64,000 nucleotides of DNA, taken from NCBI GenBank assembly GCA_903919455.1, contig CAIXIJ010000005.1, forward strand, positions 62,001 to 126,000, in the 5' to 3' direction. The position numbers and the translations under genes are program-made. The stretch comes from an uncultured Acidimicrobiaceae bacterium (lineage in GTDB: Bacteria; Actinomycetota; Acidimicrobiia; Acidimicrobiales; Ilumatobacteraceae). Below are positions 53,327-58,786 of the stretch, in pieces; position 1 is the stretch's first letter; the number at the start of each line of letters is the position of its first letter. The notes beneath the pieces are model-generated. The model saw only the letters and a list, made by a program, of their open reading frames with translations, was not told the DNA's origin and searched no databases.

Positions 53327-54103
53327 TCAGAAGCGGCCGCCGTCGACCAGGAAGTGCTGCGCGGTGCAGCCGGCACCGTCGTCGGCGGCCAGGAACAGCA
53401 CCATCTGCGCGAACTGGTCGGGCATGATGCGGTACTTCAGCGCCTGATCCTTCATGGTCTGCTCTTCGGCCTCGGGGCTCCACCACTTGGTGAGCTGCCG
53501 TTCCGTGGGCACCCACCCGGGAAGCACCGTGTTCACGCGGATGCCATGCTGGCCGAACGTACGGGCCATCGTTCGAGTGATGCCCTCCACGGCCGACTTG
53601 GCGATGGCGTAGCCGGGGAACATGTCTTCCTGCATCATGTAGCTGCTGGACCCGATGTTCACGATGGAGCCAGCACCTGCGGCGATCATGCCCGGCGCCA
53701 GCGCTTGGATGGCGAAGAAGTAGTGGCGCAGGTTCGTGTTGATGCGTTCGTCCCAGTACTCCACGGTCACGTCGCGCCAGTCGTGACGGTCGTCGTTGGC
53801 GGCGTTGTTCACCAGCACGTGCACCCCACCGAGTGCCGCTTCGGAATCGGCACAAGCCTGCTGCAGCGCAGCGATGTCGAGCAGATCGAGCTCAAAGAAC
53901 AGCGGTGCGTGCGAGGCACCGGCGGCCACACAACGGTCGATGGTCGCCTGCGCTGCTGCGGCGTCGCGGTCCACGAAGGCCACCTTGGCGCCCTGCGACG
54001 CGAACTGCAGCACCAACTCGGCACCGATGCCGGCAGCGCCGCCGGTGATGAACACACCCTTGCCGGCAAGCGAGGGATACGAAGCGAAACGAGAAGTGCT
54101 CAC
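53327..54103 (-). CDS. Short-chain dehydrogenase/reductase (SDR)
   Basis: A 258-residue Rossmann enzyme with TGGAAGIG as the cofactor loop, NNAAND, the catalytic serine in NIGSSSYM, and the catalytic YxxxK in GYAIAKSAV. Reduces or oxidises an alcohol or ketone of unknown identity. Overlaps the aminotransferase gene by 4 bp, so the two probably act in one pathway. Confidence 0.88.
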   Translation of the reverse strand: MSTSRFASYPSLAGKGVFITGGAAGIGAELVLQFASQGAKVAFVDRDAAAAQATIDRCVAAGASHAPLFFELDLLDIAALQQACADSEAALGGVHVLVNNAANDDRHDWRDVTVEYWDERINTNLRHYFFAIQALAPGMIAAGAGSIVNIGSSSYMMQEDMFPGYAIAKSAVEGITRTMARTFGQHGIRVNTVLPGWVPTERQLTKWWSPEAEEQTMKDQALKYRIMPDQFAQMVLFLAADDGAGCTAQHFLVDGGRF

Positions 54104-55395
54104 GACATCAGCTCGTCGAGTTCACCGAGTAGGTCGTCGAGACGGTCGAGCGCCGTCGCCAGTTGTTCATCGGTGTGGGCCAAGCCCACGTTCATCATGC
54201 CGCGGGTGGCGATGTACACGCCGCGCTCCAGCAGGCCGAGGAACAGCAACTCGTTCAGTGCGTTGTCGCGCTCCATGGCCTCCACGGGCGTGGTGGGCGC
54301 AGTGCGCAGACCGTGCAGCGACATCATCGAGCCGAACCCGCTCACGCTGACAGGGGCCTTGTGGCGGGCCAGCACCGCAGCCACGTTCTCGCGGAACTCG
54401 TTACCGCGTTCGGTGTGGGCCTCGGCGAGGTCGGCGCTGAACACCTCGCCCAGCACCACCCCACCGGCGGTCATGGTGGCCACGTTGTTGTTGAAGGTGC
54501 CGGCGTGACTGATGGACCACGAGCGACCGCCCTCCGGGCTGGTGTCGTAGAGGTCGAGGAATTCGGCCGAGCCACCGAAGGCGCCGAAGGAGAAGCCGCC
54601 GCCGATGTACTTGCCGTAGGTGGTGATGTCGGGCTGCACACCGAGCAGGTTCATCAGGCCACGACGACCGTGACGCGAGGTCATCACCTCGTCGGCCACG
54701 AACAAGGCACCCGCCGCCCGAGCCGCGGTGGCAACACCACGCACGAAGTAGCCGTCGGCCGGCACACAGCCACCCGAGCCGAGCATCGCTTCCATCACCA
54801 CGGCGGCCAGTTCGCTGCCGTGCTCTTCGATGAGCGCCAGCGCGCCGGGCAGGTCGTTGTACGGCGCCACCACGAAGTCGTACGGCGCGTTCCACGGCGC
54901 TGCACCGCTGGCGAAGTAGAGCACGCCACCGTGGTAGCCACCGTGAAACACCATCAGCTTCTTGCGGTTCGTGGCCATGAGCGCCGTGGAGATGGCCATC
55001 AGGTTCGCCTCCGTGCCCGAGTTGGTGAACCGCACGCGGTCGAGGCCAAACCGTTCGCACATCAACCGGGCCAACCTCGCTTCCGCCGGGTGCACGCCAC
55101 CCACGCTGACGTTGGTGTTCAACGCCGCGGTCACCGCGTCGATCACCCGATGCTCGCTGTGACCCAGCAGACCGGCGGTGTAGTCGCCCAACAGGTCGAT
55201 GTACTGGTGGCCGTCGACGTCGGTAAGCGTGGCGCCCTCGCCAGCCACGAAGTTCAGCGGGAACGGTGCATGGGTGAGCACGGTGCGGGTGTGGCCACCC
55301 GGCATGAACTGGCGGGCCTCGTCGTAGTAGCGGCGGCTACCCGGGTTGCGGTCGGCGAACTGCTGACGGGCACGCTGGACACGATCGGCGAACAT
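54100..55395 (-). CDS. Class-III aminotransferase (GSA-aminomutase-like)
   Basis: A 431-residue PLP enzyme. NSGTEANLMAISTAL is the phosphate-site region, FHGGYHGG, ADEVMTSRHGRRG and the PLP lysine in YGKYIGGG follow. Overall it resembles glutamate-1-semialdehyde aminomutase. The RHGRRG segment replaces the usual glycine-rich turn, and the SDR partner suggests an amino-alcohol or keto-acid pathway. It is not assigned as hemL because heme genes are absent. Confidence 0.82.
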   Translation of the reverse strand: MFADRVQRARQQFADRNPGSRRYYDEARQFMPGGHTRTVLTHAPFPLNFVAGEGATLTDVDGHQYIDLLGDYTAGLLGHSEHRVIDAVTAALNTNVSVGGVHPAEARLARLMCERFGLDRVRFTNSGTEANLMAISTALMATNRKKLMVFHGGYHGGVLYFASGAAPWNAPYDFVVAPYNDLPGALALIEEHGSELAAVVMEAMLGSGGCVPADGYFVRGVATAARAAGALFVADEVMTSRHGRRGLMNLLGVQPDITTYGKYIGGGFSFGAFGGSAEFLDLYDTSPEGGRSWSISHAGTFNNNVATMTAGGVVLGEVFSADLAEAHTERGNEFRENVAAVLARHKAPVSVSGFGSMMSLHGLRTAPTTPVEAMERDNALNELLFLGLLERGVYIATRGMMNVGLAHTDEQLATALDRLDDLLGELDELMS

Positions 55396-55504
55396 GGGCT
55401 CATCCTAGGAACATCCGATGTTGCCGCTGACTACCCGTCGCGGTCACCGAACCGGCCGCCACGGCCCACTTCGGTGCCCACGATGAGCACGCAGCCGAAT
55501 CGAG

Positions 55505-55577
55505 TGGGGCGGGTGGGTATCGAACCCACGACCCAGGGATTATGAGTCCCCTGCTCTAACCACTGAGCTACCGCCCC
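55505..55577 (-). tRNA. tRNA-Met (anticodon CAU, elongator)
   Basis: A 73-nt cloverleaf. GGGGCGG pairs with CCGCCCC, with discriminator A. The anticodon arm has GGGGA/TCCC around loop CTCATAA. T arm GGGTTCGATACCC. Elongator Met is favoured by ACTCATAATC; initiator is excluded because the acceptor begins with a G-C pair. A lysidine-modified tRNA-Ile(CAU) cannot be ruled out completely. Confidence 0.9.
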
Positions 55578-55601
55578 GACGCAGCGACACTACCGACCGC
55601 T

Positions 55602-56435
55602 TCAGCGACGCGAGGCCACCAACACGATGAACCGACTCGGAGGGCGCTTGCCCTTCAGCTTCGCTTTCACCGGCCGCATCGCCCATTGGCGGCCGTACCA
55701 GGTGTGGTGCCGCCGCCAGCGAAGACCCAGTTGCTCACCGAGGTCGCGCAGCATGCCATCGGTGAGGAACTCGATGGACGGCACGCTCTCCGACCGCGTG
55801 CCGTACTGATGCTCGAACTGAGCGTGCCGCTCGGCCACCATCGCATCGCCGGCCCACTGGTGCCGATACACGGGGCTGTCGAGCACCACGAGTCGCCCTC
55901 CGGGGCGCAGCACCCGCAAGCCTTCGGCAAGCGTGCGGCCATAGTCGGTGGAGTAGTGCAGTGCAGCGTTGTAGACCACGAGGTCGGCGGTGCCATCAGC
56001 AAATGGCAGATCGTCCATCTCGGCCTGATAGAGGTCGAAGGTGCGCTCGAAGAAGCCCGCCGCGCCGAGGCCGTCGTGCGCGTCGACCGTAAGGTCCACC
56101 GCGTGCGCCTCATGCCCCAACTCGGCCACTCGGTTCGAAAGCCAACCCGTACCGGCACCGACATCGACCACCACCAGCGACGGTGGCGCGGCGCGCAGCA
56201 CCTTCGTGAGGAAGGTTGCCCAGGTGCGACGGCGGATCTTCCACTGCCACTCGGTGGGCGTGCCGGGCGTTGGCTCGGGCAGGCGGCGGTAGTACTCCGG
56301 GTCGTCGATGGCCCGCCCCTCGGCGTGACGCACCATGGTGTACTCGGCCAGGAACTGCTCGAAGTATGCGGCACGCTCGTCGGCGAGGCAGCGGTGCACA
56401 CCATCCACCACGGGGAAATCGCGTCGCAACTTCAT
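55602..56435 (-). CDS. SAM-dependent methyltransferase (third gene of radical-SAM operon)
   Basis: A 277-residue class-I methyltransferase with DVGAGTGWLSNRVAELG as SAM loop, AVDLTVDAHDG as acidic strand and YNAALHYSTDY in place of motif IV. The N-terminal 60 residues are a separate helical module, and the C-terminus is basic (KLKGKRPPSRF). The ATG overlaps the preceding methyltransferase stop, so it is translated with the other two. Confidence 0.82.
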   Translation of the reverse strand: MKLRRDFPVVDGVHRCLADERAAYFEQFLAEYTMVRHAEGRAIDDPEYYRRLPEPTPGTPTEWQWKIRRRTWATFLTKVLRAAPPSLVVVDVGAGTGWLSNRVAELGHEAHAVDLTVDAHDGLGAAGFFERTFDLYQAEMDDLPFADGTADLVVYNAALHYSTDYGRTLAEGLRVLRPGGRLVVLDSPVYRHQWAGDAMVAERHAQFEHQYGTRSESVPSIEFLTDGMLRDLGEQLGLRWRRHHTWYGRQWAMRPVKAKLKGKRPPSRFIVLVASRR

Positions 56436-57196
56436 GGCCGTCGCCGCAGTTCCACCACGTAGTGGTCGGCCAGTTGCACCACCGGCCACCACCGTTCGAT
56501 GCGACGCTCGATGCGGTCGAGCACTCGCACCACACCCGGCAGACGTGCGGCCAGTGGCTCGGCGTACGACGGCGGCACCAGCGTGCCGAGCGCCCAGGTG
56601 CGCTCGCAGGTGAACCACGGGTGGAACGTTCGGCGCAGCGAACGGACCGATGGGTACCGAATGGTGAGGCCTCGCCATTCGGTGCTGGCACGGAAGCGCC
56701 GAAACGCCTTTCCGGGGCGCAGGTGAGCGAGATACCAGCCCCACTCCCACGGCACCGCGGGGCCCATCACGCATAGCAGCACCGACCCGCCGGGCCGCAC
56801 GCTGCGGGCGAGACCGGCTGCCACCATGCCGAGGTCGGCCACGCAGTTCAGCCCGCCGAAGTTCGACAGGGCACCATCGAACGTGAACGACTCGCTCTCC
56901 AGAGCGCCAACGTCTTCCGCGGCGCACTGCACGGCCTCCACGCCCCTCCCCCGGGCCTGCGCCACCATGCCCGCTGCGACATCGGTGGCGAGCACCTGCA
57001 CGCCACGTGCGGCCAAATGAGCGGCGTCGACGCCGGTGCCGCAGTTCAACTCCAGCACTCTGCTGCCAGCAGGGAACAACCGGTCGGTGCGACGCCATAC
57101 AGCGGCGCGCATGGTGCGGCCCACCACGGTGTTGGTGAACGTGTCGTCGTACTCGGGCGCAAGTGCGTCGAACGGCGACTCGGTTTGCTGGCTCAG
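56432..57196 (-). CDS. SAM-dependent methyltransferase (second gene of radical-SAM operon)
   Basis: A 254-residue class-I methyltransferase with FDALAPEYDDTFT at the N-terminus, LELNCGTGVDAAHLAARG as SAM loop and ATDVAAGM as acidic strand. The only in-frame start near the expected N-terminus is CTG at 57196, overlapping the radical-SAM stop as CTGA, with GAGG seven bases upstream; no ATG, GTG or TTG precedes it nearby. The next Met would delete the conserved N-terminal segment. A rare CTG start is therefore inferred. Confidence 0.75.
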   Translation of the reverse strand: MSQQTESPFDALAPEYDDTFTNTVVGRTMRAAVWRRTDRLFPAGSRVLELNCGTGVDAAHLAARGVQVLATDVAAGMVAQARGRGVEAVQCAAEDVGALESESFTFDGALSNFGGLNCVADLGMVAAGLARSVRPGGSVLLCVMGPAVPWEWGWYLAHLRPGKAFRRFRASTEWRGLTIRYPSVRSLRRTFHPWFTCERTWALGTLVPPSYAEPLAARLPGVVRVLDRIERRIERWWPVVQLADHYVVELRRRP

Positions 57197-58584
57197 ACCT
57201 CGACCTCGTCGGCGCTGGCCAACAACCCCAGACGGCCAGCCTCGGCGGCGGCGGCCTTCTCGGCAGCGGCCACCGGATCGGTGGCTTCGAGGCGCTTGGC
57301 ATCCACCGAGTTGAACAGCCACTGATCGGCGAACGAGTAGTACTTGCGCGAGTGGCGGCCCATTATCTTGTGGTCGCGGTCGGAGCCCGAGTTCCACTCG
57401 GAGGAGAAGATGAGCTTCGGCTTCACCTTCTCGTAGAAACCGGTGTTCTTGATGGGGTACGCGACGGTGGTGAAGTAGATGTCGGGGTTGGCTTCCTTCA
57501 CGTGCTCCACCGTGGCCTCGATGTCGCTGTACTCCTCGCCGTCGTAGCCCCACATGAGGAACATGCCGACTTCGATGCCGTACTTCTTGGCCAGGCGGGT
57601 GGCGAGTTGCACTTCCTCCACCTTCACGCCGCGCTGCATGGCGTCGAGGATGCGCTGACTGCCGCTCTCCGAGCCGATCCAGATGCGATAGCAGCCCAGT
57701 TCGGCCAGCTCGCGCACGGCATCGTCGCTCTTCATGCGGTCGGCGCGAGAGATGGTCTCGAACGGGATGCGCATGTTCCGGCGCTGCATCTCCTGGTGGT
57801 ACTCGTGCAGCCACTTGTGGCTGATGGTGAACACGTCGTCGGCGTACCAGACCTGTTCGGGCTTGTACGTCTCGACGATGTGCTGCACTTCGTCGACGCA
57901 GTCGATGGGGTCGCGGCGACGGTGCGAGTAACCGAACACGGCGTGACTGCACCAGTTGCACTTGTAGGGGCAGCCGCGGGCGGTGATGAGGTTCACCGAG
58001 CCCATGCCGTGATGCTCGCGCCACACATCCACGTAGGCGGCCGTATCGATGGCTTCGCGGTCGGGCCACGGCAACGTGTTGATGTCGGCGATCTTCTCGC
58101 GGCTCTCGTTGTGCACGATGCGGCCGTCTTCGTCGCGGAACACCGTGCCGGCCACGCCGTGCAGCCGGTGCATGCCCCTGTCGCGCAGCACGGTGAGCAG
58201 TTCGGCCATCGTGGCTTCACCCTCGCCCACCACCACCACGTCGGCGCCACGATCGAGGTAGTCGTCGGGGTAGTTCGCGCTCTCGGGTCCGCCGAACACC
58301 ACGGTCCAGCCGAATCGGTGCGCCTCTTCTGCAATCCAGAGCGCGTTGGCCCGAGTCATCAGGTTCGTGTAGACGCCGAGCACACCGTTCGGGGTAGCGG
58401 CCAGGCGGGCCGACAGTGCCTCACGGCTGGAGAACGTGGTGTCGAAGATCTCCACGTCGAACCCCTCACGCTTCAAGTAAGCGCTGAGGTACAGGATGCC
58501 GAGAGGAGCGTACGGCTTCATGATCTGCCGCTCCTTCTCGTCGTCCCAAAGGAAGTAACCGTGGGTGAGAAGAACGTCCCGCAT
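57193..58584 (-). CDS. B12-binding radical SAM protein
   Basis: A 463-residue radical-SAM enzyme with an N-terminal cobalamin-binding fold (VLLTHGYFLWDD..., YAPLGILYLSAYL, VVVVGEGEATMAELL) and the cluster motif CPYKCNWC. Similar proteins methylate or rearrange inert carbon centres in hopanoid, chlorophyll or natural-product pathways. ATG 58584 is chosen from domain start. It heads a three-gene operon with two methyltransferases. The C-terminus is Ala-rich and may not be structured. Confidence 0.85.
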   Translation of the reverse strand: MRDVLLTHGYFLWDDEKERQIMKPYAPLGILYLSAYLKREGFDVEIFDTTFSSREALSARLAATPNGVLGVYTNLMTRANALWIAEEAHRFGWTVVFGGPESANYPDDYLDRGADVVVVGEGEATMAELLTVLRDRGMHRLHGVAGTVFRDEDGRIVHNESREKIADINTLPWPDREAIDTAAYVDVWREHHGMGSVNLITARGCPYKCNWCSHAVFGYSHRRRDPIDCVDEVQHIVETYKPEQVWYADDVFTISHKWLHEYHQEMQRRNMRIPFETISRADRMKSDDAVRELAELGCYRIWIGSESGSQRILDAMQRGVKVEEVQLATRLAKKYGIEVGMFLMWGYDGEEYSDIEATVEHVKEANPDIYFTTVAYPIKNTGFYEKVKPKLIFSSEWNSGSDRDHKIMGRHSRKYYSFADQWLFNSVDAKRLEATDPVAAAEKAAAAEAGRLGLLASADEVEV

Positions 58585-58634
58585 CGTGTGCGATGTTAAG
58601 CGCATCCAGGCATCGGAACCACCCGGAGCGGCAG

Positions 58635-58671
58635 AAAAAGGCGAACGGCCCGCACGAGGCGGGCCGTTCGC
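58635..58671 (-). terminator. Rho-independent terminator after tRNA-Asn
   Basis: A perfect 13-bp G+C-rich stem (58641-58671) with a five-base loop, followed on the minus strand by a run of five T. It ends the rpoD-tRNA-Asn transcript upstream of the radical-SAM operon. Confidence 0.9.
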
Positions 58672-58674
58672 TGC

Positions 58675-58750
58675 TGGCTCCGAGAGCAGGGCTCGAACCT
58701 GCGACCCGCTGATTAACAGTCAGCTGCTCTGCCAACTGAGCTATCTCGGA
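58675..58750 (-). tRNA. tRNA-Asn (anticodon GUU)
   Basis: A 76-nt gene including CCA. TCCGAGA pairs with TCTCGGA, discriminator G. Anticodon stem GCTGA/TCAGC holds loop CTGTTAA with anticodon GTT. T arm GGTTCGAGCC. A GUN anticodon is a queuosine target, relevant to queG at 19093. It lies 36 bp downstream of rpoD. Confidence 0.97.
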
Positions 58751-58786
58751 ATGGCGATGAAGGAGGATAGCAAGCGACCCGCCGCG

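Follow-up and report, generated by a model that had tools for sequence, protein, structure and literature searches.

A B12 radical-SAM and methyltransferase trio in an Acidimicrobiaceae genome, predicted to be one half of a conserved two-paralogue cassette

We analysed a 64,000-nucleotide stretch of an uncultured Acidimicrobiaceae genome (GCA_903919455.1, contig CAIXIJ010000005.1; hereafter the window), in which three overlapping genes on one strand encode a B12-binding radical S-adenosylmethionine (SAM) enzyme, rSAM-B, and two class-I SAM methyltransferases, MT1 and MT2. The trio is real and conserved, and genome comparison indicates that the functional unit is larger than the trio and is split in the window's genome (G000). 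As judged from the sequences, it makes up the B half of a conserved pathway; the A half, with a second B12 radical-SAM paralogue (rSAM-A), lies on another contig. A preliminary description of the window had regarded the operon as isolated, a view contradicted by the partner genes on this second contig of the same genome. It is very probable that rSAM-A, rSAM-B and MT1 form one system and a conserved unit. The enzyme families are known, whereas the cassette itself has apparently not been described: among the matches listed from the open-licence PubMed Central (PMC) literature, none deals with it in its title or the start of its abstract, which is weak evidence of novelty.

B12 radical-SAM enzymes perform some of biology's hardest carbon chemistry and, to our knowledge, few of the non-methylating ones have a known substrate. 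The two-enzyme cassette is found in Acidobacteriota, Bacteroidota, Chloroflexota, Actinomycetota and other phyla, including several named strains, so the question is testable. It also holds a lesson for annotation, as a seemingly isolated operon appears to be one half of a system, with the second half on a separate contig. We consider it a lead that merits experiments and not established new chemistry.

Pairing of rSAM-A with rSAM-B

Close relatives were represented by 61 genomes, the window's own included, that were not chosen for rSAM-B. The wider set consists of the best 80 of 334 stretches encoding an rSAM-B relative in a species-level genome collection (80 different accession prefixes). 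rSAM-A is ~35% identical to rSAM-B. Six of 231 radical-SAM candidates were too short or unclear and were dropped; in the tree of the other 225 plus the window protein (226 sequences), A and B form separate clades (support of 0.999 and 0.993), and both are present in 68 of the 80 loci. The genomes of the remaining 12 loci were searched and all 12 encode rSAM-A, ten on another contig and two beside B (L099, where it is in two adjacent pieces, and L109); the latter two copies had been missed by the initial locus filters. Every one of the 80 genomes with rSAM-B has rSAM-A, the two genes being at most 1 kb apart in 58 loci and at most 3 kb apart in 64. Among the 61 close relatives, B is detected in four and A in five, including all four that are B-positive.

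The best evidence that the A and B loci belong to one system is an HPr-kinase-like (HprK-like) gene that accompanies either half. This gene is single-copy in all six genomes searched. In G000, G002 and G007 its distance from A is ~3.3 kb; in G009, G031 and G079 it immediately precedes B.

MT1 is found with rSAM-B in 72 of the 80 loci (≤300 nt away in 64), MT2 in 18 and the exact order B-MT1-MT2 in 14; the methyltransferase counts are lower bounds, as some loci end at contig ends. The arrangement is not due to chance, since rSAM-B is kept in 80 loci with MT1 this close in 64 of them, and the trio is not itself the unit, because MT2 and the exact order are found in so few. The proposal that the three genes stay together in relatives thus stands for rSAM-B and MT1 and falls for MT2. 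The gene caller picked the wrong strand in several high-GC loci (e.g. L055, L056, L059 and L062), for which homology-supported frames were used. Alignments A1 and A2 each combine the window with 39 loci (for A1, 39 of the 80 B loci), and A3 combines the G000 protein with 27 loci.

The CxxxCxxC motif is conserved in 85 of 85 B rows (the 80 loci, the window, three second copies from the same genomes and L065) and in 73 of 73 A rows. The B12-binding domain PF02310 is detected at E ≤ 0.01 in all 40 B members and all 28 A members scanned, although it is weaker in the rSAM-A of G000 (34.7 bits, cut-off 32.1) than in the window's rSAM-B (56.1 bits). One Acidobacterial A protein without PF02310 at E ≤ 0.001 had prompted the idea that rSAM-A is a B12-free, AprD4-like enzyme, which was dropped in view of the 28 matches at E ≤ 0.01.

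Close homologues of rSAM-B (at least 81% identity) are limited to 4 of the 61 relatives' genomes (G000, G007, G009 and G031), and MT1 and MT2 stand beside it in all four, MT2 being cut by the contig end in G007. A sibling at 99% identity is encoded by Acidimicrobiaceae bacterium RE-4nov15-40. The wider loci span Acidobacteriota, Bacteroidota, Pseudomonadota, Chloroflexota, Planctomycetota, Gemmatimonadota, Actinomycetota, Armatimonadota and Myxococcota, and the named strains with the cassette include Terriglobus albidus DSM 26559, Ohtaekwangia koreensis DSM 25262 and Sphingomonas sp. JC676. In a tree of rSAM-B made by a quick method, from which L057, L059 and L062 were excluded (same genomes as L068, L069 and L067), the window groups with four Actinomycetota (support of 100) and then with a Chloroflexota metagenome-assembled genome (95), and several phyla are scattered. 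This scatter fits transfer between phyla, without proving it.

Neighbouring genes, folds and a possible pathway

In G000, rSAM-A (C18:39188-40519) has as neighbours two glycosyltransferases, an NTP_transf_5 protein and a kinase-like protein that weakly matches the HPr-kinase C-terminal domain (20.2 bits, cut-off 33.3; the counterpart in Acidobacteriaceae bacterium KBS 96 scores 37.1). A 232-aa protein with no Pfam match at E ≤ 0.01 (L055 14742-15440, G000:C18) is encoded in the A locus of G000, G007, G009 and G031. KBS 96 carries A, B, MT1 and MT2 in one gene run, together with three other B12 radical-SAM proteins, a SPASM radical-SAM protein, a methyltransferase that is the third of the run, an amidohydrolase, NTP_transf_5 and an HprK-like protein. 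This run (L098 4588-18541) holds five B12 radical-SAM proteins and one SPASM radical-SAM protein, and ~18 kb past its end is an XrtA/PEP-CTERM-type exopolysaccharide (EPS) glycosyltransferase (TIGR03013, above cut-off). In Roseivirga sp. E12, the run comprises a glycosyltransferase-2-like gene, an NTP_transf_2-like protein (just below cut-off), A, MT1 and B, and continues with an ATP-binding cassette (ABC) exporter (best NCBIfam profile PglK, 214 bits, cut-off 1000), a GDSL protein and a sulfotransferase.

The AlphaFold model of rSAM-B (predicted template modelling score of 0.91; predicted local distance difference test score, pLDDT, in Table 1) has two tied top matches, AprD4 (Z 30.4, root-mean-square deviation (rmsd) 3.4, 423 residues aligned) and OxsB (Z 30.3, rmsd 3.8, 429 aligned); further matches are TsrM (Z 27.3, rmsd 3.0, 410 aligned) and CysS (Z 26.9, rmsd 4.0, 419 aligned). 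Like the solved cobalamin radical-SAM enzymes OxsB, TsrM, TokK, CysS and MgmA, rSAM-B has an N-terminal B12 domain and a CxxxCxxC radical-SAM domain and is matched over nearly its full length. Unlike them, it is accompanied by a paralogue, and its identity to them is ~15-22%. AprD4, the radical-SAM diol dehydratase of apramycin biosynthesis, is also the solved sequence nearest to A (98.4 bits, with MgmA barely lower at 96.3). It differs in that A and B match the Pfam B12 domain, whereas AprD4 itself is not known to contain cobalamin.

Among NCBIfam profiles, the best for rSAM-B is BchE (TIGR02026, 133.7 bits, equivalog cut-off 481.35), and the best for an Acidobacterial A is HpnJ (TIGR03471, 125.7 bits for A and 114.2 for B, equivalog cut-off 577.6). 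Lower scores for B were obtained with rSAM_ladder_B12 (TIGR04072, 109.4 bits, equivalog cut-off 360), the P-methyltransferase PhpK (TIGR04479, 109.1 bits, subfamily cut-off 600) and the AprD4 family (NF033070, 47.9 bits for B and 82.6 for an A, equivalog cut-off 500). BchE and HpnJ, both non-methylating B12 radical-SAM enzymes, thus give the best profiles for B and for an A, although at scores 3.6 to 5 times under their equivalog cut-offs. The likenesses of fold and sequence are at superfamily level and cannot separate methylation from rearrangement. Excerpts of two papers name OxsB, AlsB, BchE, HpnJ, ThnL, PbsB and ladderane synthase as non-methylating members (PMC13331322, PMC13142503), and the excerpt of the former calls OxsB, TsrM and TokK class 1 (PMC13331322).

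For MT1, the closest structures are TM1389 (Z 27.1, rmsd 2.8, 233 aligned) and CmoM (Z 25.7, rmsd 2.8, 236 aligned). A substrate could not be read from this fold: the top matches are uninformative, and the amino-sugar methyltransferases CalS10 and TylM1 are found further down (Z 18-19), together with many others.

We tentatively propose that A and B perform radical carbon chemistry on a glycosyl or phosphoglycosyl substrate and that MT1 and MT2 then methylate it, the product being a glycoconjugate; we hold this reading as a whole to be possible, at somewhat below an even chance. AprD4 is a dehydratase of a sugar (paromamine), the substrate of OxsB is a nucleotide, and MgmA is a protein methylase. 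A sugar-containing substrate would be the most economical, given these substrates of AprD4 and OxsB and the glycosyltransferases encoded in part of the loci. A and B would work on a glycosyl or phosphoglycosyl intermediate, either in turn or as a complex, and each would cleave SAM at a [4Fe-4S] cluster to give a 5'-deoxyadenosyl radical. The cobalamin of B, and perhaps of A, may deliver a methyl group to an unreactive carbon or, as has been proposed for OxsB, stabilise a substrate radical as it undergoes ring formation or rearrangement. The product would then be methylated on O or N by MT1 and, in loci that have it, by MT2; as ordinary SAM methyltransferases can serve these atoms, the difficult carbon chemistry would be left to the radical enzymes. 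The kinase and the nucleotidyltransferase-fold protein could attach the product via a phosphate or a sugar, and the glycosyltransferases and, in some loci, the ABC exporter would complete and export it. A more specific version, in which A and B are an obligate pair acting on one glycan or phosphoglycan and alter the carbon skeleton of bacterial envelope sugars in a way unknown from any enzyme (by contracting a ring, forming a C-C bond or adding a C-methyl group), we consider rather unlikely.

Several observations weigh against this proposal. G002 encodes A, the kinase and genes resembling MT1 and MT2, and no B was found there, so A can exist without B. Conversely, G052 has no rSAM-A and has a partial 38% match to rSAM-B (residues 9-291; L065 5089-6306), which has a very long branch and joins the tree close to the base of the B clade; it was counted as neither and could be a B without A. 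The nearest solved sequence to B by profile is the protein methylase MgmA (96.6 bits), which is also nearly as close to the B model as the top folds are (Z 29.0, rmsd 4.2, 378 aligned). The BchE, HpnJ and AprD4 scores are far below their cut-offs, and rSAM-B reaches no NCBIfam cut-off at all; a match to a family with an assigned product, which would have refuted the preliminary description, was not found. Glycosyltransferases are found in only 27 of 80 B loci. Comparison with control stretches does speak for the proposal: in a profile search, glycosyltransferases were detected in 1 of 20 controls, and HprK-like or nucleotidyltransferase genes in 51 of 80 B loci and in none of the controls. These contrasts are indicative, as the profiles were seeded from the B loci themselves, which favours those loci, and the controls (20 kb each, at fixed positions) come from six of the same genomes. 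Finally, the precedent for the kinase and nucleotidyltransferase is a peptide and not a free glycan: in the excerpt of PMC9266682, PsmK and PsmN, a kinase and a nucleotidyltransferase homologue, add a phosphate and a hexose to the lasso peptide pseudomycoidin. By analogy with that description, the present loci, which also pair such proteins, would equally allow a peptide.

Other possible products

The latter possibility, that A and B C-methylate or cross-link a ribosomally synthesized and post-translationally modified peptide (RiPP), which the HprK-like kinase and the nucleotidyltransferase-fold protein phosphorylate and glycosylate, is improbable in our estimate. It would account for the likeness to PsmK and PsmN, which tailor pseudomycoidin in the part of PMC9266682 available and are likened here by description only, and it is consistent with the SPASM radical-SAM protein of the Acidobacterial loci and with the fold of MgmA. 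Pseudomycoidin is however the product of a lasso peptide system, and neither a lasso peptidase nor a precursor was found here. None of the 1,765 short open reading frames (ORFs) tested forms a precursor-like family, as the preliminary description had it; this set excluded ORFs overlapping called genes, gene-caller errors affect part of the high-GC loci, and precursors that are distant or little conserved would be missed. The short-ORF families common to 3-7 loci look by eye like antisense or compositional matches and one ferredoxin-like protein. The lasso leader peptidase (B2, PF13471) is absent from 10 of 16 genomes searched, including G000 (97% complete), G002, G007, G009 and G031. With no precursor-like short ORF and no PF13471 in these five actinobacterial genomes, a lasso peptide or other RiPP was rejected as the preferred product and kept as a rival.

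A small secreted natural product (a nucleoside, an aminoglycoside-like compound or another type), synthesized and exported in free form, we rate as no more and no less improbable than a peptide. The top folds, AprD4 and OxsB, act in such pathways, and the genes are scattered over phyla and inserted at one site. ABC exporters are found in 9 of 80 loci, but also in 2 of the 20 controls, and the Pfam scan of 30 locus proteins returned no polyketide synthase or nonribosomal peptide synthetase domain, although no dedicated search was made. The preliminary description had suggested modified lipids or natural products; the genes do look like a biosynthetic set, and its lipid option, a hopanoid- or ladderane-like modification of the membrane, is kept as a decidedly improbable rival. 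HpnJ and rSAM_ladder_B12 are among the best profiles for rSAM-B (114 and 109 bits), yet both scores are far below the cut-offs, and no lipid-synthesis family appears among the same 30 proteins. It is very improbable that the trio is self-sufficient, with rSAM-B a C-methylase for a diffusible substrate and rSAM-A present by coincidence: the three genes do make a compact cassette, inserted as a unit, but A occurs with B in all of the wider set and in all B-positive close relatives.

The trio and its insertion site

The coordinates of the trio are as first described, its genes overlap by 4 bases each (CTGA for rSAM-B/MT1 and ATGA for MT1/MT2), and the assignment of the three proteins was borne out by Pfam domains above cut-offs (Table 1).

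Table 1. Features of the trio and its borders in the window
Feature	Position	Strand	Evidence or remark
rSAM-B, B12-binding radical-SAM enzyme, 463 aa, CxxxCxxC	57193..58584	minus	Pfam PF02310 and PF04055; model pLDDT 94.5; orthologues in 80 loci
MT1, class-I SAM methyltransferase, predicted CTG start overlapping rSAM-B stop	56432..57196	minus	Pfam; homologue in 72/80 loci; model pLDDT 95.7
MT2, class-I SAM methyltransferase, ATG overlapping MT1 stop	55602..56435	minus	Pfam; 18/80 loci
tRNA-Asn (gtt)	58675..58750	minus	upstream border of insertion
tRNA-Met (cat)	55504..55577	minus	downstream border of insertion
13-pair terminator hairpin of rpoD/tRNA-Asn unit, upstream of trio	58641..58671	minus	terminator scan

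rSAM-B begins with the ATG at 58584, a start position shared by its orthologues, and matches Radical_SAM (PF04055) with 67.9 bits and the B12-binding domain above its cut-off. MT1 and MT2 each match at least two class-I methyltransferase models above Pfam cut-offs, including Methyltransf_25 (45.8 and 51.4 bits, respectively) and Methyltransf_11 (40.9 and 64.3 bits). The CTG previously named as the start of MT1 is the most likely one, although still a prediction. The nearest standard in-frame starts are a GTG 42 codons upstream, which sits inside rSAM-B, and a GTG at residues 24-25 downstream, which would remove F9 and Y16, both invariant across 40 aligned sequences. The CTG is conserved in G007 and G009, and G031 has a GTG at the same place.

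The N-terminus of MT2 in G031 and G002 (L057 11510-12430 and L061 3761-4663) is a zinc-ribbon-like stretch (CPVC...CxxC...YPxVDG), which we take to resemble Trm112. This part is mostly absent from the window and from G009, where the tail alone remains. G009 also has a second, shortened MT2 copy (L064 4545-5321, G009:C304), matched as two abutting pieces with the intervening part of the query missing. In G002 (C107, C21), the MT1-like gene (39% identity) is beside A and the MT2-like gene (59%) is elsewhere.

In the window, the trio occupies the 3,097 nt between tRNA-Asn and tRNA-Met. Twelve same-genus genomes were searched for RpoD, which was found in ten (none in G005 and G013 at the limit used). 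In all eight informative genomes without the trio (G001, G002, G003, G004, G006, G008, G011 and G014), the two tRNA genes follow RpoD and are 61-250 nt apart, too short to hold the trio, which is therefore absent from this junction. Of the other two, G007 has the trio and the stretch fetched from G010 stops at tRNA-Asn. In G009, tRNA-Met directly adjoins MT2 as well. These comparisons suggest that the trio was gained at the tRNA-Asn/tRNA-Met junction or repeatedly lost from it, a gain being the simpler explanation.

The strong terminator that was thought to isolate the operon does exist as a hairpin, but it lies upstream of the trio and ends the rpoD/tRNA-Asn unit. A hairpin also stands after tRNA-Asn in six of the eight genomes without the trio, as judged by eye (all but G001 and G004), which assigns it to the tRNA unit. 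The terminator scan gave one match against 1.4 expected in shuffles, despite the stem of 13 pairs, and a sigma-70 scan found no promoter.

Candidate marks of mobility were rejected. The borders (55491-55640 and 58571-58780) share no direct or inverted word of at least 10 nt that could be an attachment-site repeat, the G+C content gives no signal of foreign origin (64-69% in the trio, 64-67% in its neighbours and 66% in the window), and rSAM-B has no match at E ≤ 1e-40 in 72,556 plasmid records. Next to tRNA-Met, the window encodes a class-III aminotransferase-like gene (54100-55395) and a short-chain dehydrogenase-like gene (53327-54103), named by eye, which overlap by 4 bases.

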